The position numbers and the translations under genes are program-made. This document shows, piece after piece, positions 34,826-43,300 of a stretch of 64,000 nt of DNA. The notes under the pieces are model-generated. The model ran no database searches. It was not told the DNA's origin and worked only from the letters and a program-made list of their open reading frames with translations. Position 1 is the first letter of the stretch; each line of letters starts with the position of its first letter. This stretch comes from Bradyrhizobium sp. CCBAU 53340 (GTDB lineage Bacteria; Pseudomonadota; Alphaproteobacteria; Rhizobiales; Xanthobacteraceae), in the NCBI RefSeq assembly GCF_015291645.1, contig NZ_CP030055.1, positions 248,001 to 312,000 on the forward strand, given 5' to 3'.

Positions 34826-35356
34826 TCAGGCCGAGACCATCGTGTGGATCTCGTCGAGCAGTCCCTGGAGCCGCGCCGCCGGCACTGGCGCGGCCGACAG
34901 CGCGAAACCGAGAAATGTCCAGTAAAGGATCTGCGCGCGCGCCTGCGCGGCGGCTCTGGAGACGCCGCGTCGTTCCAGCAGCGCTTCGATATAGTCGAGC
35001 CGGCGGCGGTCGATGGCGCGGACGGCCGCCTGCGCCGCCGGGTCGAACGCCGCCCAGTTTCGCACGGCGCGCTCCAGGTCGAGCCGGGCGCCAAACGTCC
35101 TGCGCAGCAGCGCTTTCAGCGGCTCGTCGCTGCCGGCCTCGACACCGGCGATGATCTCCTCAGCCGCGATGTCCCGCCAGCGCTTCAGCACCGCCGCGTG
35201 AAACGCGCCGAGATCGGCGAAATGCCAGTAGAAACTGCCGCGCGAGACGCCCATGGCCCTTGCCAACGGGTCGGCCTTGAGCGCGGTGAAGCCGCCGTTG
35301 GTGAGCGCCTTGAGGCCCGCTTTGATCCAGTCATCGGCAGAGAGCTGCTCGGTCAT
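34826..35356 (-). CDS. TetR-family repressor
   Basis: The 176-residue product has the N-terminal helix-turn-helix ALARAMGVSRGSFYWHFADL and a C-terminal ligand domain unlike characterised ones. It is divergent from a small membrane protein gene. Two operator-like inverted repeats (CCATACA-N4-TGTATGG and an imperfect copy) lie in the 105-base gap, so it probably represses itself and its neighbour. The ligand is unknown. Confidence 0.92.
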   Translation of the reverse strand: MTEQLSADDWIKAGLKALTNGGFTALKADPLARAMGVSRGSFYWHFADLGAFHAAVLKRWRDIAAEEIIAGVEAGSDEPLKALLRRTFGARLDLERAVRNWAAFDPAAQAAVRAIDRRRLDYIEALLERRGVSRAAAQARAQILYWTFLGFALSAAPVPAARLQGLLDEIHTMVSA

Positions 35357-35377
35357 GTCGGGGTCCGAAATCTCCGG

Positions 35378-35395
35378 CCATACATTAGTGTATTG
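35378..35395. promoter_or_regulatory. TetR operator candidate, proximal
   Basis: CCATACA-TTAG-TGTATTG, an imperfect copy of the site at 35423, 22 bases before the tetR start. Confidence 0.65.
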
Positions 35396-35422
35396 ACAGG
35401 CGGCTGACCAGCGTCTATCTCA

Positions 35423-35440
35423 CCATACATATCTGTATGG
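35423..35440. promoter_or_regulatory. TetR operator candidate, distal
   Basis: CCATACA-TATC-TGTATGG has perfect seven-base arms. It lies 45 bases from the proximal site and 22 bases before the divergent membrane gene. Confidence 0.72.
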
Positions 35441-35461
35441 ACAGAATGTCGGAGTGCGTTG

Positions 35462-35812
35462 ATGCGTGATCTCATGCTCCAGGGCGCCGGACTCCTCGCC
35501 ATTGTCGTGGCGCTGGTCCATGGCTTCCTCGGCGAGGCCAAGGTCTTTCCCCGCGCGACCATCGAGCCGCCGCGGCTGCGCACCCTCATCCGCCTGGTCT
35601 GGCAGGCCTCGACCGTGGCCTGGATCGGCTGCGGCGTGCTGCTGATCGCAGCGCCCGGGATGGACTCAGGTGCCGCACGCCGCTGGATCGTCGTCACCAT
35701 GATCTGCGTGTTCGGCTTCTCCGCGCTCGCCAATGCATGGGCGACGCGTGGCCGGCACTTCGGTTGGATGATGCTCACTGCCGTCGTGGCGATGACGGTG
35801 GCTGGCTACTGA
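35462..35812 (+). CDS. Small four-helix membrane protein
   Basis: A 116-residue hydrophobic protein with four predicted membrane helices (about 7-25, 45-62, 74-92 and 98-115). It begins MRDLMLQGAGLLAIVVALVHG. I do not recognise a characterised family. It is divergent from the TetR gene, and both share two operator-like sites, so it is the likely target of that repressor. Confidence 0.75.
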   Translation: MRDLMLQGAGLLAIVVALVHGFLGEAKVFPRATIEPPRLRTLIRLVWQASTVAWIGCGVLLIAAPGMDSGAARRWIVVTMICVFGFSALANAWATRGRHFGWMMLTAVVAMTVAGY

Positions 35813-35913: not shown

Positions 35914-35930
35914 GTTAGAATATCTCTAAC
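35914..35930. promoter_or_regulatory. Irr-box-like inverted repeat upstream of the redox cluster
   Basis: GTTAGAATATCTCTAAC resembles the rhizobial Irr iron-control element TTTRGAAYNRTTCYAAA at most positions, including both TTAGA-type halves. It is 90 bases before the PepSY gene and 22 bases before a possible -35 (TTGACT, 35953). The match is by eye and tentative. Confidence 0.4.
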
Positions 35931-36019: not shown

Positions 36020-36310
36020 GTGAAGGTCATTCGCGTTCTTGCCATCGCAGTAACGGCCGGGATCGGCATGGGAATCAACGTGGGATCGACGGCGATGGCC
36101 GATGGCTTCAAGGATTGCACCAGGCTCGACAAGGCGTCGTGGAAGCCGGCGGGCGATGCGGAAGCCAAGGCCAAGGCCGCAGGCTATGAAGTGCGTCGCT
36201 CCAAGATCGAAGGCTCGTGCTACGAGGTCTATGGCGTCAAGGAAGGCAAACTCTTTGAGCTGTTCTACAGCCCGGAAGATCTCAGCCTGAAACACACGAT
36301 CGCCAAGTAG
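36020..36310 (+). CDS. Periplasmic PepSY-like protein
   Basis: The 96-residue product has a signal peptide ending near STAMADG, then a PepSY_2-type domain: CTRLDKASWKPAGDAEAKAK, GYEVRRSKIEGSCYEVYGV and FELFYSPEDL. The GTG start is fixed by an excellent AGGAGGAG seven bases upstream. It ends only 13 bases before the cytochrome b561 gene. PepSY proteins are common in flavin-transfer redox clusters, which fits the downstream genes. Confidence 0.82.
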   Translation: MKVIRVLAIAVTAGIGMGINVGSTAMADGFKDCTRLDKASWKPAGDAEAKAKAAGYEVRRSKIEGSCYEVYGVKEGKLFELFYSPEDLSLKHTIAK

Positions 36311-36323
36311 GGCATTGGCTCAG

Positions 36324-36842
36324 GTGGCGGTGTGGGATCTTCCGCTGCGTCTGTGGCACTGGGTCCTCGCAGCGTGCGTCTTGGTGGCATGGTTCACGCC
36401 GACCGTCCATGACCGCCTTCATCGCATCGTCGGCTATGCGGTGATCGGGCTCCTCGTCTTTCGCCTGGTCTGGGGCTTCTGCGGCAGCCGCTATTCGCGC
36501 TTTCGCATGATTGGCGTCAGGCTTCGCGCCGCGCCGTCTTATCTCTGGAATCTGCGTCGCGGCATCACCGGCCGCTATATCGGGCTCAATCCCGCCGGCA
36601 CCTTGATGCTGGTGGCGCTGCTGCTGTCGCTCACCATCTCCGCGATCACGGGCGCGCTGTCGGTGACCGTCACCTTCTTCGGCGTCTGGTGGATCGAGGA
36701 CACCCACGCTTACGCATCGGACGCCGTCATCGTTCTCGTCGTGCTGCATGTCGCGGGCGTCGTGGGGATGAGCATGCTGCAGCGTGAAAACCTGATCCGC
36801 GCCATGATCACCGGCCGCAAGCGCATCCGTCGTCATCTTTGA
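36324..36842 (+). CDS. Cytochrome b561-family membrane protein
   Basis: Di-heme b-type membrane cytochrome that passes electrons from the quinone pool or cytoplasmic donor to a periplasmic partner. The 172-residue product has four membrane helices with heme-ligand histidines in VWDLPLRLWHWVL, VHDRLHRIVGYAV and VVLHVAGVVG. The reading frame opens right after the PepSY stop; the exact start (GTG 36324, GTG 36330 or TTG 36315) is uncertain, with AGGG about 11 bases before the first. It is probably the membrane electron source of the cluster. Confidence 0.87.
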   Translation: MAVWDLPLRLWHWVLAACVLVAWFTPTVHDRLHRIVGYAVIGLLVFRLVWGFCGSRYSRFRMIGVRLRAAPSYLWNLRRGITGRYIGLNPAGTLMLVALLLSLTISAITGALSVTVTFFGVWWIEDTHAYASDAVIVLVVLHVAGVVGMSMLQRENLIRAMITGRKRIRRHL

Positions 36843-37061
36843 GCGAGCAGGCGGGCTGCAGCTACGGACTCACGCGCTCGTTCGATTCTGTAGAAATTCC
36901 AGTCGGATCGTCCGCCCGCATCGGGCACAGGCATCCTTCCTTTCATTATTCTAATTCTAATGTGGAGCTATTCTAGCTTCGTCGTCCCTCGTTCCGCTTT
37001 CCAAGGCGGGAATTTGCAGGCTTTTCCTGCGGTCGAATGCCGCAAGCCTTTGGGGGAATGC

Positions 37062-38708
37062 ATGTCATCGTTTCACGGTCTCACGGATCCGGTCGCGCCG
37101 GCTTTCGGCGCTCGCCGATACCGGCGCCGATCAGCCCTGCTCGCGGCATCAGCCATCTCGCTTCTGAGTTCTGGCGCGGCTTATGCAGCCGAAGCCGGGA
37201 CGAACGATGCCCTGCTCAAGAAGCTGGAGAGGATGGAGCAGCGCATCCAGCAGCTCGAATCTGAACTGAAGCAGAAGCAGGATCGCCCGGCAGCCGATGC
37301 GGACACAAAGCGGACGGCAAAAACGGCAGCGCTGACGAACGCCAATGCGGCGGCGTCCCCTGCCGACACAAAGGACGCGTCAGCCAAGCCCGCGGACCAA
37401 AAAACCGAACCGCAGTCGTCGGACAAACCGGCCAAGCCGAAGTCGAAAGACTTCATGGCCCTGCCGCCGCTGCCGGCGGCGGGAGACAAACCGATCCTTG
37501 GTGTTGCGGATTCTCCGGTCCCTGGTCTCAGCATCGGGGCCTATGGCGAGATCAAGTTCGGCACCATGCAAAATCCAGCCGCGGCCGGTCAATGGCAGAA
37601 GGGTTTTGACGCGGCGAGGTTCGTTCTGCTGCCGACCTATGCGATCACCCCGAACATCATCTTCAACGCCGAAATCGAGTTCGAGCACGCCGGCGCAGGA
37701 TTCGACAACGACGACAAGCTGCACGGCACCGCCGAGATCGAGCAGGTCTGGATCGACTTCAAGATCATCGACCAGTTCAACTGGCGTTCGCCGGGCGTCG
37801 ATCTGGTGCCGTTCGGCTACATCAACCAGCATCACGAACCCACGCAATTCTACAGCGTGAACCGGCCCGAGCTCTACAACAGCATCATTCCGTCGACCTG
37901 GAAGGTCCCGTCCACAAGCGTCTACGGGACGATCACCGAAGACCTCAAATACCAGGTCATGATCAGCGCCAGTAACGAGGATTTCGGCGACTCCTTCGAC
38001 GCCAGGACCGATGCAAAGACCGTCCCCCTTCCCGGCACGGCGTATGCTGCGGGCATCGACGGCGTGAACGCACTCGGATTCTCGCGGCCTCCGCTCGGCG
38101 ATTTCCAGCAGCTCAACAACGCCACGGCCGTGTCCGGCCGGCTCGACTTCACGCCGACGTTCTGGGCCGGCTTCGCCGGCAGCGTCAGCGCCTATTACTC
38201 GCCGAACACGACGCCGCGCGGAGCGCATGACGATTTCGGCAACTTCCTCGGCAGGTCCAGCCTTGCCATGTTCGACGCCGAATTCCGCTACAGGGTGCCC
38301 GACACGGGCCTCGAGCTTCGCGGCGAATATGTCCGCGCCCAGTTCGGGCACCCGGAAAATCTGCGCGCCAACAACGACACGGATCCGACCAACAATGTCG
38401 GCAAGACGATGTACGGCTATTCCGGCGAGATCGCCTATCATGTGCCGCTCGGCACGGTTCTGAACAGCGAGTGGGAGGCTGTGCCGTTCTACCGTTACAC
38501 CTACATGAACCTGCAGACGGGCGGCTTCGCCGGCACCGATGCCAATCTGCCGACGGGCCAGGGTCAGCGGCAGTACCACACGGCCGGTTTTGCCGTGTTT
38601 CCGTCGCCCAAGGTCGTGCTGAAGGCGACGTATCAGCATGTGATCGACAAGAGCGCGACCGGCGCGCTGTCGGATTCGTTCCTCGGCGGCGTCGGGTTCT
38701 TCTTCTGA
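37062..38708 (+). CDS. Outer-membrane porin-like barrel with N-terminal coiled coil
   Basis: The 548-residue product has a signal peptide ending near GAAYAAEAG. A short coiled coil follows (LLKKLERMEQRIQQLESEL, about residues 50-75), then a long Lys/Ala/Pro-rich linker to about residue 145. The rest is a beta-barrel with alternating hydrophobic strands, ending in FLGGVGFFF, the terminal phenylalanine typical of outer-membrane barrels. It looks like an OprO/OprP-type porin, but the substrate is unknown. The ATG at 37062 has GGGGGAA before it. It sits between cytochrome b561 and the flavinylated protein. Confidence 0.85.
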   Translation: MSSFHGLTDPVAPAFGARRYRRRSALLAASAISLLSSGAAYAAEAGTNDALLKKLERMEQRIQQLESELKQKQDRPAADADTKRTAKTAALTNANAAASPADTKDASAKPADQKTEPQSSDKPAKPKSKDFMALPPLPAAGDKPILGVADSPVPGLSIGAYGEIKFGTMQNPAAAGQWQKGFDAARFVLLPTYAITPNIIFNAEIEFEHAGAGFDNDDKLHGTAEIEQVWIDFKIIDQFNWRSPGVDLVPFGYINQHHEPTQFYSVNRPELYNSIIPSTWKVPSTSVYGTITEDLKYQVMISASNEDFGDSFDARTDAKTVPLPGTAYAAGIDGVNALGFSRPPLGDFQQLNNATAVSGRLDFTPTFWAGFAGSVSAYYSPNTTPRGAHDDFGNFLGRSSLAMFDAEFRYRVPDTGLELRGEYVRAQFGHPENLRANNDTDPTNNVGKTMYGYSGEIAYHVPLGTVLNSEWEAVPFYRYTYMNLQTGGFAGTDANLPTGQGQRQYHTAGFAVFPSPKVVLKATYQHVIDKSATGALSDSFLGGVGFFF

Positions 38709-38763
38709 TGCCGATGGGGACGATCCTGCAGGATCTGATCAGGGGACTATGAGTGAGGTGACG

Positions 38764-39234
38764 ATGAGTTGGGTTCGATACACCGTGCCGGCTGCGGCGC
38801 TTCTGTCAGCGGCCTCTCCCGCTTATGCCGTTCGGTATCTGTCGATCGAGGAGGCGAAGAAGGAAGCATTTCCGTCCGCGACACAGTTCTCCGAAGTTCA
38901 GGCGGGCCGGGTGTGGAAAGCGGAAGCCGGCGGCAAGGTGGTCGGCTTCTTCGTGTTCGACCGGGTCGTCGGCAAGCACCTTTTCATCGACTACGCCGTG
39001 GCGCTGACCCCGGCGGGCGCGGTCCACAAGGTCGAGATCCTCGAATACCGGGAATCCTATGGCGGCGACGTCAGGAGCCAGAGCTGGCTCGCCCAGTTTG
39101 CCGGCAAGACCAGCAGCAGTGCGCTCAAGATCAACGGCGACATCAGGAACATCGCCGGCGCGACGCTGTCGTCGACCCATATCACCGAGGGCGTGAAACG
39201 GATATTGGCGGCCTATGGCAATCGCCTCCGATAG
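38764..39234 (+). CDS. FMN-binding-domain protein, probable covalent flavin carrier
   Basis: The 156-residue product has a signal peptide ending near SPAYAVRY and an FMN_bind domain of the RnfG/NqrC type. The flavinylation sequence NIAGATLSS near residues 129-137 has the threonine (T134) on which ApbE would place FMN by a phosphoester bond; the usual Asp of the motif is Asn here. The ATG at 38764 has GAGG five bases before it; an ATG at 38749 would add five residues. Its stop overlaps the apbE start by 20 bases, so the pair is translationally coupled. Confidence 0.9.
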   Translation: MSWVRYTVPAAALLSAASPAYAVRYLSIEEAKKEAFPSATQFSEVQAGRVWKAEAGGKVVGFFVFDRVVGKHLFIDYAVALTPAGAVHKVEILEYRESYGGDVRSQSWLAQFAGKTSSSALKINGDIRNIAGATLSSTHITEGVKRILAAYGNRLR

Positions 39235-40120
39235 CATCCGCCGCGCACGGCCGCTGCTCGGCACCTTCGTGGAGATCGAGGTTGCGGGCGCTCCCAGATC
39301 CGACATGGACGGCGCCATCGATGCCGCATTCGATGCCATTGCACAGGTGCATCGGCTGATGAGCTTTCACGAGCCGGACAGCGATGTCAGCCGGCTCAAC
39401 CGCGACGCCGGCCTTCACCCCGTGAGCGTTCATGCCTGGACGTTCGAGGTGCTCGCCACCGCCATCGAGCTGCATCGTCGCACCAAGGGGCTGTTTGACG
39501 TCACGGTCGCGCCGACGCTGCAGACGCTGGGCCTGTTGCCGCTCCTGAAGGACAAACCGGCGCCGCTTGCTGGGTTTGCCAACGCGATCGAGCTGCTTCC
39601 GGACCATCAGGTCCGTTTTCGATCGAGCGATGTGATGATCGACCTTGGCGGCATCGCGAAGGGCTTTGCCGTCGACCGCGCGGTCGCCGCGCTGCGCGAT
39701 CTCAATATTCCGGGCGGCATGGTGAATGCCGGCGGCGACCTCCGGGCTTTCGGCGTCGAGCCGCGCGTGGTCCACATCCGCGATCCCCGCGATCCCGGCC
39801 GATCGGTCTGCCGCATCGACGTGGCCGACGAGGCGCTGGCTTCGACGGCGCGCCGCGTCGAGCTGTTCGACAGCCGCGAGCCCGGTGGCTCGGCGGTGAT
39901 CGATCCCGCAACCCAGAGGCCGGCGGCCCTGGTCGAGGGCGTCACGATCCGCGCACCGTCCTGCATGATCGCCGATGCCTTGACCAAGATCGTGATGATC
40001 GCCGGGACCGACGCGGGCGAGCTGCTCGAATCCTGTCACGCCGGCGCCTTGCTGATCTCGTCAGACGGCGACGTTCAGATCACCTCCGATTGGCATCACC
40101 GGGTGCACCTTGCGGCTTAG
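39215..40120 (+). CDS. apbE: FAD:protein FMN transferase ApbE
   Basis: Magnesium-dependent enzyme that transfers FMN from FAD to a Thr of exported flavoproteins. The 301-residue product has RPLLGTFVEIEV, MSFHEPDSDVSRLNR, DVTVAPTLQTLG, the metal/FAD-binding DLGGIAKGFAVDRAVAAL and GGMVNAGGDLRAFG. No clear signal peptide or lipobox is seen, unlike many ApbE, so it may act at the cytoplasmic side or be exported differently. It overlaps the FMN-binding gene upstream and the b-type membrane gene downstream. Confidence 0.96.
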   Translation: MAIASDSIRRARPLLGTFVEIEVAGAPRSDMDGAIDAAFDAIAQVHRLMSFHEPDSDVSRLNRDAGLHPVSVHAWTFEVLATAIELHRRTKGLFDVTVAPTLQTLGLLPLLKDKPAPLAGFANAIELLPDHQVRFRSSDVMIDLGGIAKGFAVDRAVAALRDLNIPGGMVNAGGDLRAFGVEPRVVHIRDPRDPGRSVCRIDVADEALASTARRVELFDSREPGGSAVIDPATQRPAALVEGVTIRAPSCMIADALTKIVMIAGTDAGELLESCHAGALLISSDGDVQITSDWHHRVHLAA

Positions 40121-40526
40121 GACCTCCTATCGCTATCCCCTCTATGCGGCGTTCGCTGCGCTGATTCTGACAGGCGCCGGTTGGCTCGTGGCCGACTGGC
40201 GGAAGGACGCCGGTGACGAGATCTGGCAGCAGATTGCCGCCAACATGCTGATGGTCCATGGCGGCGTGGCGATGCTGGCACTGTTGCTGCTCGGGGCCCT
40301 CATTCCGCTGCACGTGCAGCGGTCCTGGCGCGGCGGCAAGAATCTCGTCTCCGGATCGGTCATGGCGGCGTTCAATGCCGTGCTGATCGTGACCGCATTC
40401 GGTCTCTATTATCTGGGATCGGAAGCGGTGCGGCCCTTCATGAGCTGGATCCATCTGGCGACCGGCTTCTCGTTGGCCGTGATGCTCCCGCTTCATATCT
40501 GGCTGGGTCGCCGCCAGCGACGATAA
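40110..40526 (+). CDS. Four-histidine membrane protein (DUF4405-like, probable b-type cytochrome)
   Basis: The 138-residue product has four membrane helices. Histidines H50 and H68, and H115 and H129, lie in helices 2-4 in a spacing that would suit two b hemes (LMVHGGVAML, IPLHVQRSW, SWIHLATGF, LPLHIWLG). It overlaps apbE by 11 bases and uses a TTG start, so it is coupled to it. DUF4405-type cytochromes are known partners of flavin-transfer systems; the family assignment is by pattern only. Confidence 0.72.
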   Translation: MRLRTSYRYPLYAAFAALILTGAGWLVADWRKDAGDEIWQQIAANMLMVHGGVAMLALLLLGALIPLHVQRSWRGGKNLVSGSVMAAFNAVLIVTAFGLYYLGSEAVRPFMSWIHLATGFSLAVMLPLHIWLGRRQRR

Positions 40527-40786
40527 CCTCGGGCTCGAGCTTGTCGGGACGCAAACGCGTCGCCCTCAGCCGTGAAATTGAGTTGGCCGTGACAGAGCCA
40601 CGGGCACGCTTACCCGCATAGTTTCACAGGCCCGTACCATCTTACCCGCGCCATCATCACCTTGGCGTTTTCTACCGGTGACGTTTACCTCGCAATAGGC
40701 ATGCAACTAGGCCTTGCAAAGGAATTAACGCGTAACAAGTCCGACGGGGTCAATCTTCGCTCGTATTGACGAGGGAGCGATATTGC

Positions 40787-43300
40787 ATGTTCCGCGTTTT
40801 TTCCTGCCTGGCGACTGAGCACGATTGGCGGCTCGTTCTGCTCGCTGGCCTGGTTTGCTTCGCGGCAAGCATTGTAGCCGTCAGCATCTTTCATCGCGCC
40901 ATCGCGTCGCGCGCCAGAACGCGGTTGATGTGGATTGCGATCGCCGGCGCCGCCATCGGTTACGGAATCTGGGCGACGCATTTTGTCGCAATGCTCGCCT
41001 ACGAGCCGGGCGTCTCGACCGGGTACGGCCTCGTTCTGACAGCGTTGTCACTCGCCGTGGCGATGATCCTGACGTCAGGCGGCTTCGGAGTAGCCGTGAA
41101 CAATTCCGGCCGCTGGCGCGCAGCTGCTGGTGGCGGCATCATCGGCGCCGGCATCGCAAGCATGCATTATATCGGTATGTGGGCTCTCGAAGTGCCGGGT
41201 CACGTGACCTGGTCGCTTGGGCTGGTGCTCGTCTCGATCGGCCTTGGCATGGTCCTAGGCTATGCGGCGCTTGCGGTCGCCATGGGCCGCAAGGACAAGC
41301 GGGGGACCTTCGTCGCGGCGCTGCTGCTGACCCTCGCCACCGTGTCGCATCATTTCACGGCCATGGGAGCCGTACAAATCATTCCCGACCCGACGCTGCA
41401 AAGCGATACATTATCGCTTTCGCCGGGCTTCCTCGCCGTTGCAATTGCGGGTGTGGCTCTGTCGGTGCTCGGGATGAGCTTCGTCGGCGTCCTGGCGGAT
41501 CGCCGTCTTGCGAGCAGAACCAGCAGACTCGAGGCAATCATCAGCGAACTTTCGCACGCCAGGCAACAGGTGGAAGATTCGCAACGGCAAATCCAGGATC
41601 AGAAATTCAGGCTGGATACGGCCATCAATAACATGGTCGAGGCGTTGTGCATGTTCGATGCGGAGAGGCGACTTGTCGTCAGCAACGAGCGTTATGCCCG
41701 GCTCTATCGACTGCCGCCGGAGCTGCTGATAACGGGGACCCCGCATGCTGACATCATCAGGCATCGCGTCATGACCGGCATCCTCAAGAGCGACACCAGC
41801 GAGGGCGCCGCGGAGCAATTCCTCGCGAAATTGGCCGCGTTGCCGTTCGATACGGTCTCGAGCAGAATCGATGAGTTCGCGGATGGCCGGTTGATCTGCG
41901 TGACGCGACAGCCGATGGCCGGCGGCGGGTGGGTGGCCACGCATCTCGACGTCACCGAGCAGCGCCGGTCCGAGGCCAAGATCGCTCATATGGCGCAACA
42001 CGATGCGCTGACCGATTTGCCAAATCGCGTGCTGCTCAGGGAGCGGATGGAGCATGCGCTTGCCGTGACGCGCAATGGCGGTCTCAATCTGGCGGTGCTC
42101 ATGCTCGACCTCGATCGGTTCAAGGAGGTCAACGACACATTGGGGCACCCGGCGGGCGATTCCCTGTTGTGCGCCGTCGCTGCGCGGTTGCACGAATGCA
42201 CCACGGAAAGCGCGCTGATTGCCCGGCTGGGCGGCGATGAGTTCGCCGTGATCGACTATGTGACCAACCCGGCCGTTGAGGCAGTCGCCCTCGCCGAGAA
42301 CATCAGAAAGGCGCTTTGCGAACCCTTCGATCTCGACGATCACCGGGTCACGGTGGGTACCAGCATCGGCATTGCCATCGCACCGCGCGATGGGGAGGAT
42401 TCCGACGTGCTCATGAAGAGCGCAGATCTCGCACTCTATTCGGCCAAGAGCGGTGGACGTGGCGCATTCCGTTTCTTCGAGCCGGAACTCGACCAGCTCA
42501 TGCAAGTGCGGCGCAACCTCGAACGCGACATGCGGGATGCGCTTGCTAGCGGCGAATTCGAGCTGCATTACCAGCCGTTCGTCAATACCGCGACTGGCGA
42601 GATCCGCGGCTTCGAAGCTTTGCTACGCTGGCATCACCCGCTGCGAGGTCTGGTCCTGCCCGGCGACTTCATTCCTCTCGCGGAGGAGACCGGCTTGATC
42701 GTGCCGCTGGGAGAATGGATCTTGAGGACGGCATGCAGCGAAGCCGCCAAATGGCCCGCCCATCTCAGGATCGCGATCAACCTATCTCCGGCTCAATTCA
42801 GGAGCAAGGAGCTCGTCCCGGTCATTGTCGGCATGCTGGCGAGCTCGGGCGTTGCGCCACACCGACTCGAGCTTGAGGTGACGGAGACGGTCATCATGCA
42901 CGACAGCGAGGCTGTCTTCGCAACACTTGGCCAACTGCGCGAGCTTGGCGTGCGAATAGCCCTTGACGACTTCGGCACCGGCTATTCATCCTTGAGTTTT
43001 CTACAGAGATTCCCGTTCGACAAGATCAAGGTCGACCGCGCCTTCGTCAACGAACTGTCCAGCGCTAGCCCAGACGCACATCATCTCGCGCGAGCGGTCG
43101 TTCGCTTTGCGGTCAGCCTCGGCAAGGTGACGACCGCGGAAGGAGCCGAAACGAAGCAGCAGCTTGATATCCTCCGTGAGGAAGGCTGTGCCGAAACGCA
43201 AGGCTACTATTTCGGCCGACCGATGCCCGCCTCCGGCGTCGCGAAAATGCTGACGCAAGGCGCAAAGCGAGGCGATAAGGCAGCCGTCCAAGCGGCGTGA
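40787..43300 (+). CDS. MHYT-PAS-GGDEF-EAL cyclic di-GMP signalling protein
   Basis: The 837-residue membrane protein begins with a MHYT sensor, about residues 10-245, with seven helices and H-x-x-x-M repeats (ATHFVAML, SMHYIGMW, SHHFTAMGAV) suited to metal, oxygen or NO. A PAS-like segment follows (280-405), then GGDEF with an intact motif but no RxxD I-site, then EAL with EALLRW, NLSPAQF, EVTETVIM, DDFGTGYSSL and K-V-D-R, so phosphodiesterase activity is expected. GAGGGAG precedes the ATG at 40787. It is 260 bases after the redox cluster; a shared redox cue is possible but not shown. Confidence 0.93.
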   Translation: MFRVFSCLATEHDWRLVLLAGLVCFAASIVAVSIFHRAIASRARTRLMWIAIAGAAIGYGIWATHFVAMLAYEPGVSTGYGLVLTALSLAVAMILTSGGFGVAVNNSGRWRAAAGGGIIGAGIASMHYIGMWALEVPGHVTWSLGLVLVSIGLGMVLGYAALAVAMGRKDKRGTFVAALLLTLATVSHHFTAMGAVQIIPDPTLQSDTLSLSPGFLAVAIAGVALSVLGMSFVGVLADRRLASRTSRLEAIISELSHARQQVEDSQRQIQDQKFRLDTAINNMVEALCMFDAERRLVVSNERYARLYRLPPELLITGTPHADIIRHRVMTGILKSDTSEGAAEQFLAKLAALPFDTVSSRIDEFADGRLICVTRQPMAGGGWVATHLDVTEQRRSEAKIAHMAQHDALTDLPNRVLLRERMEHALAVTRNGGLNLAVLMLDLDRFKEVNDTLGHPAGDSLLCAVAARLHECTTESALIARLGGDEFAVIDYVTNPAVEAVALAENIRKALCEPFDLDDHRVTVGTSIGIAIAPRDGEDSDVLMKSADLALYSAKSGGRGAFRFFEPELDQLMQVRRNLERDMRDALASGEFELHYQPFVNTATGEIRGFEALLRWHHPLRGLVLPGDFIPLAEETGLIVPLGEWILRTACSEAAKWPAHLRIAINLSPAQFRSKELVPVIVGMLASSGVAPHRLELEVTETVIMHDSEAVFATLGQLRELGVRIALDDFGTGYSSLSFLQRFPFDKIKVDRAFVNELSSASPDAHHLARAVVRFAVSLGKVTTAEGAETKQQLDILREEGCAETQGYYFGRPMPASGVAKMLTQGAKRGDKAAVQAA

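Follow-up and report, generated by a model that had tools for sequence, protein, structure and literature searches.

Gene organization of the locus

The 64,000-nucleotide stretch of Bradyrhizobium sp. CCBAU 53340 studied here (contig NZ_CP030055.1, positions 248,001 to 312,000; hereafter the window) carries six consecutive genes that an earlier annotation made from the letters alone, the original prediction, had joined into one flavin electron-transfer system with its own outer-membrane barrel. All six open reading frames (ORFs) lie on the plus strand where it had placed them, and the last three overlap exactly as described, by 20 bases (39215-39234) and by 11 bases (40110-40120). We nevertheless read the six genes as two units, of two and four genes, because about 220 bases and a conserved element part the end of the second gene, encoding a cytochrome b561-type protein, from the start of the third at 37062. 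The first two genes, PepSY and b561, are a separate module, and the cassette consists of the last four (37062-40526), which encode the barrel, an FMN_bind protein, an ApbE-family protein and a membrane protein termed TM4H. This cassette is real and conserved, and comprises the following features:

37062 to 38708, plus strand: outer-membrane porin-type barrel with an N-terminal, coiled-coil-like helix and a disordered linker; the ORF is open from ATG 36960
38749 to 39234, plus strand: FMN_bind protein (PF04205) with a short Sec-type signal peptide (by eye) and a putative flavinylated threonine in IAGATLSS
39215 to 40120, plus strand: ApbE-family FAD:protein FMN transferase (PF02424) without a signal peptide and with alanine at the His257 position
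40110 to 40526, plus strand: TM4H, a four-helix, four-histidine membrane protein and probable minimal diheme cytochrome b, from histidine conservation and an AlphaFold2 (AF2) model
36948 to 36975, plus strand: conserved element ATTCTAATTCTAA..GGAG..ATTCTA (written out: ATTCTAATTCTAATGTGGAGCTATTCTA), upstream of the barrel gene

The FMN_bind protein matches PF04205 at 5.5e-8 (33.8 bits against a cut-off of 22) and the ApbE protein matches PF02424 at 2.7e-49 (168.5 bits against 25.6); neither the barrel protein nor TM4H matches a Pfam family above its curated cut-off. The barrel gene most likely starts at ATG 37062 and not at ATG 36960, given the GGGGG before it and the signal-peptide-like stretch after it (by eye), and the conserved element spans the earlier start. 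In this element the first and third ATTCTA are spaced 22 bases apart. With up to two mismatches allowed, the initial 20 bases of the element have a single match in the genome of 8.7 Mb, so that no second copy was found there, and the element recurs upstream of the barrel gene in most, although not all, related loci. The search named no regulator.

The cassette is conserved far beyond the genus

A scan of species-representative genomes with alignment A1 returned 534 relatives, and the scan results given here concern the best 80 of these, ranked by likeness to the FMN query. FMN_bind and TM4H were present in all 80 loci and ApbE in 79, and the order FMN_bind-ApbE-TM4H, recounted by gene ends, was kept in 78; the exceptions are L111, in which no ApbE was found, and L117, in which TM4H has moved. 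A barrel gene lies directly upstream in 76 loci and elsewhere in the locus in L122 (77 of 80 in total), and encodes a DUF6662 protein in 65 (five of them with a porin in addition) or a porin alone in 12, the porin family thus being represented in 17. The three loci without a barrel are L149, whose contig starts within the FMN gene, L092 and L100. By record title the hosts are Alpha-, Beta-, Gamma- and Deltaproteobacteria, Acidobacteria and Verrucomicrobia, of which single placements may be wrong because many records are metagenome bins.

Within Bradyrhizobium, all 26 porin-type loci, defined by an FMN protein at least 76% identical to that of the window and with the window included, carry the barrel, FMN_bind, ApbE and four-histidine genes in that order. 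Of 385 genomes sampled at class level, 22 gave matches to the FMN protein (the source genome included), 15 of them weak; among the six other matches, below 1e-17, whose neighbours were viewed, FMN_bind is followed by ApbE and the four-histidine gene in four (L054-L057) and stands without them in two (L058, L059). Neighbour clustering also grouped a response regulator found in 12 loci, with no fixed placing. The conserved gene order that the original prediction had proposed as a test therefore holds widely for the last four genes and not for PepSY and b561, and its core proposal, electron transfer by a flavoprotein together with ApbE and a dedicated outer-membrane barrel, is supported far outside the genus, the link to iron being found elsewhere than in the window.

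Two barrel families fill the same slot

In L054-L057 and in six distant Bradyrhizobium copies the upstream gene belongs to DUF6662 (PF20367), as assigned by Pfam for six and by profile for the rest. Because the 80 scan loci had been ranked by likeness to the FMN query, we searched in the reverse direction, with DUF6662 alone, through 398 Pseudomonadota genomes. This yielded 11 DUF6662 genes in 10 genomes (two of the genes appeared as two rows each), and 10 of the 11 head the exact four-gene order, so that DUF6662 is nearly dedicated to the cassette within this sample. DUF6662, a family of unknown function of which we found no mention in the literature texts searched, thereby gains a clear gene context. 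On a tree of FMN_bind, ApbE and the four-histidine protein (104 rows, quick method, SH-aLRT support only), the distribution of porin and DUF6662 requires seven changes, at least four of them being forced by starred branches, and the barrel label is still clustered compared with shuffles (7 changes versus 18.5). We conclude that the barrel slot is kept while the barrel family is swapped.

A search of the source genome with the window porin gave no further match. The predicted structure of this porin is nearest to OprP and OprO, which are phosphate-type porins, and shares with them a porin fold and an N-terminal helix; it differs from them in an identity of only ~12-13% and in the lack of a match to Porin_O_P (PF07396) at 0.1, a family that two of its relatives, from L147 and L122, do match. 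Neither DUF3570 (PF12094) at 0.1 nor the solved-structure search, with one match of E 0.39 that is not meaningful, adds a relationship. An electron conduit through the barrel, of the MtrAB kind, is not favoured because the fold is that of diffusion porins.

The flavoprotein and its ApbE

The original prediction had named T134 as the flavin acceptor, which is correct from ATG 38764 and corresponds to T139 from ATG 38749. The window protein has the GA[S/T] acceptor, and GATLS is invariant in all nine aligned FMN_bind members; the residue before GAT is alanine in the window and L068 and serine or threonine in the other seven. The best solved-structure match is RnfG (E 0.003). Half of the FMN_bind N-termini that could be located (34 of 68) pass a crude hydrophobicity test, the failing ones that were inspected still resemble short signal peptides by eye, and a twin-arginine motif occurs in one of the 68 and in L057. 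After signal cleavage the protein is apparently soluble and probably not part of an ion pump, and we infer that the cassette ApbE would flavinylate it at the GAT threonine.

The window ApbE begins MAIASDSIRRARPLLGT, with no earlier in-frame start, and the 45 residues ahead of the RxxPxLGT-type motif hold no hydrophobic segment in any of the 75 rows, out of 79 ApbE loci, in which this motif was located; at most 15 residues are possible ahead of it in 41 loci, and four genomes encode a protein that starts MI-RCKP[LM]LGT. In a chosen set of 28 cassette genomes the cassette ApbE is the sole ApbE in 15, and in three more any further ApbE is either that of a second copy of the cassette (G512, G594) or a match below the threshold (G004). 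Should flavinylation of the exported protein occur in the single-ApbE genomes, the protein that carries it out has no export signal. Because the ApbE lacks such a signal, flavin may be attached in the cytoplasm, before the FMN_bind protein leaves or during its export. Cytoplasmic ApbEs that serve a soluble fumarate reductase exist, and the routes by which FAD reaches ApbE are called obscure in the same 2025 review (PMC12052999). Were the protein modified first and then secreted, no FAD need reach the periplasm, and these genomes would be natural cases in which one signal-less ApbE has to serve an exported substrate.

The active site is less regular. The motif aspartate is present as D254 of ADAL, assigned by motif as the equivalent of Asp285, in 78 of 79 rows, the other being a gap. 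The window protein has alanine where Vibrio cholerae ApbE has its catalytic His257, as do 25 of the 26 Bradyrhizobium porin-type ApbEs (the other has valine), and no histidine lies near this column in 32 of the 80 aligned ApbE rows, which include those of the window and of a second ApbE from the same genome; these residues weigh against simple flavinylation. The cassette ApbE might accordingly no longer transfer FMN, FMN_bind then holding its flavin loosely or being modified by another ApbE, for which the second ApbE of the window genome, Nos-type and with a Tat-like signal (both by eye), would be at hand. We consider this unlikely, since the cassette ApbE stands alone in those 15 genomes, the GATLS acceptor is invariant, the other ApbE motifs are conserved, and a His257Gly mutant is reported to have decreased activity (PMC12052999).

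TM4H is a probable two-haem cytochrome

The last gene encodes the four-histidine membrane protein that the original prediction had recognized; the histidines are H50, H68, H115 and H129. In the AF2 model (pLDDT 95.7) its 138 residues form four helices, with H50 and H68 in helix 2 (residues 37-74) and H115 and H129 in helix 4 (108-137). The histidines are nearly invariant among the aligned sequences (H50 and H68 in 81 of 81, H115 in 80, H129 in 79), and charge places the protein's ends inside in 60 aligned members. The predicted fold resembles cytochrome b6, hydrogenase cytochrome b and CybB. Fifteen of the 60 members match the b561 family (PF01292) at 1e-3 or better, the window protein scoring 15.1 bits, below the cut-off of 30.1; four match DUF4405 (PF14358), the best at 2e-5, while the window protein gives no match at 1e-3 and its model has four helices instead of the six expected of DUF4405. 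A solved-structure search with the TM4H profile gave no match at E 1, and Foldseek none at 0.001. From the paired histidines and the modelled fold, TM4H is probably a haem-binding b-type cytochrome with two haems. Being present in 80 of 80 cassette loci, it is more likely than b561 to be the electron donor, the role for which the original prediction had proposed b561.

PepSY and b561 form a neighbouring module

Upstream of the cassette lie three further features:

35915 to 35929, no strand: Irr-box-like inverted repeat TTAGA-N5-TCTAA, belonging to the neighbouring module and not to the cassette
36020 to 36310, plus strand: small exported PepSY_2 protein (PF13670, 4e-15), neighbouring module
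36315 to 36842, plus strand: cytochrome b561-type membrane protein (Ni_hydr_CYTB/b561, PF01292, 1.9e-18), neighbouring module

The window PepSY protein matches PF13670 alone and neither of the PepSY-like families PF03929 and PF16357. That b561 and PepSY are the inner-membrane donor of the flavoprotein in a six-gene chain, as originally proposed, would agree with their adjacency to the cassette in 18 of the 26 Bradyrhizobium porin-type loci, contig ends having cut two of the other eight. In a profile search, however, no relatives of either protein were found in the 80 scan loci, and among 195 Bradyrhizobium genomes searched with both proteins b561 matched in 133 at E 0.001 (a figure that includes weaker paralogues, some at ~42% identity), compared with 35 for the FMN protein, its own genome included. 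Ten b561 loci from genomes without an FMN match carry PepSY-b561 and no cassette, and the Irr-like box precedes PepSY whether the cassette is present or not. We consequently reject the six-gene unit, hold the six-gene chain to be very improbable, and regard PepSY-b561 as a neighbour only, because of its varied adjacency, its occurrence without the cassette and the mobile position of a GGDEF/EAL gene, which stands before, between or after the two units depending on species. In the window this MHYT-PAS-GGDEF-EAL gene occupies 40766-43300. A divergent TetR regulator and a small membrane protein (window 34826-35812) are kept upstream in many related genomes, and the pair is present also without PepSY-b561 in L170 and L171.

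The sequence TTAGA-N5-TCTAA, which we take to be the core of the Irr box, has three exact sites in the genome, upstream of PepSY-b561 and before the genes for bacterioferritin (bfr) and the iron exporter MbfA (L154 1501-1515 and L155 1501-1515), both identified above NCBIfam cut-offs. The count of this pattern proves nothing, because a reversed control pattern has five genomic matches, and we reject it as evidence; placement and conservation alone carry weight. The site lies 105-128 bases upstream of PepSY in 26 of 28 loci (25 by called starts) and persists while its flanks drift. In B. japonicum, Irr represses bfr and mbfA, and this repression is lifted at high iron (PMC4902296). If the box is an Irr site, the PepSY-b561 module would be among the genes expressed at high iron, and this fits awkwardly with a role in uptake alone.

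Links to iron and the electron acceptor

An FTR1 iron permease gene lies within 7 kb of 6 of the 80 cassettes, an enrichment over the 0.1-0.2 expected, the iron-gene profiles having been built from a few members found at these loci. The base rate was taken from 50 of the 80 genomes (~214 Mb, all six positives included, split rows joined), in which 27 FTR1 genes occur in 24 genomes, six of them inside cassette loci of ~0.7 Mb in total; the expectation in these 50 loci of up to 14.5 kb is ~0.1, and two of the six, L096 and L097, are close kin. Other iron and redox genes in the 80 loci are Fur-family (3), ferritin (1), Dyp peroxidase (2) and cupredoxin (2), and in L092 a Dyp peroxidase, a cupredoxin and FTR1 precede FMN_bind, ApbE and TM4H, in this order, additional genes lying between the first of them.

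An iron reductase role is the best reading of the cassette, at about an even chance. The cassette would be a split periplasmic ferric reductase, a description that we judge could equally well prove right or wrong, in which electrons pass from a diheme b cytochrome to a flavoprotein and on to Fe(III) entering via the barrel. In such a scheme the products of the four genes would make up a split flavocytochrome that extends towards the outer membrane. Two haems in TM4H would be stacked through the inner membrane, the H50/H115 pair close to the periplasmic side and the H68/H129 pair close to the cytoplasmic side, and its electrons would come either from quinol or from the cytoplasm. The FMN_bind protein, small and soluble, would receive these electrons, its FMN sitting on the GAT threonine by action of the neighbouring ApbE. 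The reduced flavoprotein would then reduce a ferric or similar complex diffusing in through the cassette's own barrel, and the ferrous iron could then be taken up, through FTR1 at those loci that have it as a neighbour. The cassette would thus represent a bacterial two-protein counterpart of the flavocytochrome ferric reductases. Inward flow, from a periplasmic donor through the flavoprotein and TM4H to quinone, as in CybB with superoxide, appears quite improbable, as characterised systems are described as running from donor to membrane carrier to extracytosolic flavoprotein, with reversal possible in principle (PMC8238504).

The same cassette and electron path might instead serve an acceptor other than iron, such as peroxide, copper or an organic compound, for example via a periplasmic di-haem peroxidase. 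A CCP_MauG di-haem peroxidase gene stands just upstream of the porin in seven of the 80 loci (L117, L118, L123, L124, L136, L142 and L147; two identified by Pfam, the rest by profile), a large multicopper-oxidase-like gene lies upstream of barrel-less Bradyrhizobium cassettes (L060 4430-6727, L061 4070-6316), and the porin fold is nearest to that of the phosphate-type porins OprP and OprO. We regard this alternative as somewhat unlikely, given that the peroxidase is seen in porin-type loci only and the multicopper oxidase in a single group of Bradyrhizobium, whereas FTR1 occurs alongside the cassette in some five lineages (by record titles). By eye only, CopC/CopD-like copper protein genes are seen downstream of the cassette in the DUF6662-type loci L065 and L066.

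Several observations besides the peroxidase genes and the missing histidine weigh against the ferric reductase. No FTR1 was found in 74 of the 80 loci, there is no fixed iron neighbour, and the window cassette itself contains no iron gene; the Irr-like box belongs to PepSY-b561, and the expression at high iron that it would imply suits uptake poorly. The Fur-family genes could encode PerR or Zur, which NCBIfam does not settle. The matches of the helical-bundle fold of TM4H are weakly specific, and outside its barrel the porin is poorly modelled. Two loci of a single alphaproteobacterial genus, L058 and L059, have an FMN_bind gene with the motif SGATLSS, near which neither ApbE nor TM4H was found; one DUF6662 gene (L209) stands alone; and the FTR1 locus L092, its relative L100, and L060, L061 and L176 of Bradyrhizobium have a barrel of neither family, other families not having been sought. 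A fuller picture, in which widespread outer-membrane flavoprotein chains are served by a signal-less cytoplasmic ApbE that modifies the precursor before or during export, with an exchangeable barrel and ferric reductase activity, is tentative and in our judgement somewhat doubtful.

Comparison with known systems

In the literature searched we found no description of the cassette; supplementary tables, which lay outside the search, may list some apbE clusters, and the word "porin" does not occur in the main texts of PMC8238504 and of the preprint PMC10979944. The closest likeness is to the DUF4405/ApbE cytochromes (Huang et al., 2024; PMC11334425), described as membrane proteins with haem b and four central histidines beside apbE, one of which was shown to bind haem b and a homodimeric relative of which, FezC, is a ferrosome protein. 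These are reported there to have six helices and often a Flavodoxin_4 substrate, whereas TM4H, with 138 residues and four helices, is partnered by FMN_bind and comes with an outer-membrane barrel dedicated to the cassette. The PepSY-like, MsrQ-like and DsbD/DUF3570 systems (Meheust et al., 2021; PMC8238504) likewise combine ApbE, an exported flavoprotein and a membrane carrier, and several are linked there to iron uptake; their carriers and substrates, as described, are others, and the window PepSY is a small PepSY_2 protein. The same paper places an FMN_bind protein with the FTR1 permease in P19/FTR1 iron uptake clusters, which it describes as mostly Gram-positive, and here FTR1 accompanies only the six cassettes. 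NqrC and RnfG share the FMN_bind domain and a GAT-type acceptor and are parts of ion pumps, unlike the apparently soluble cassette protein. The cytoplasmic Klebsiella ApbE has no signal peptide either, and its substrate is given as a soluble fumarate reductase (PMC12052999), whereas that of the cassette carries a signal peptide. The cassette is set apart by its coupling of electron transfer of the flavinylation type to a channel in the outer membrane, as four genes in a fixed arrangement that recurs in several phyla.

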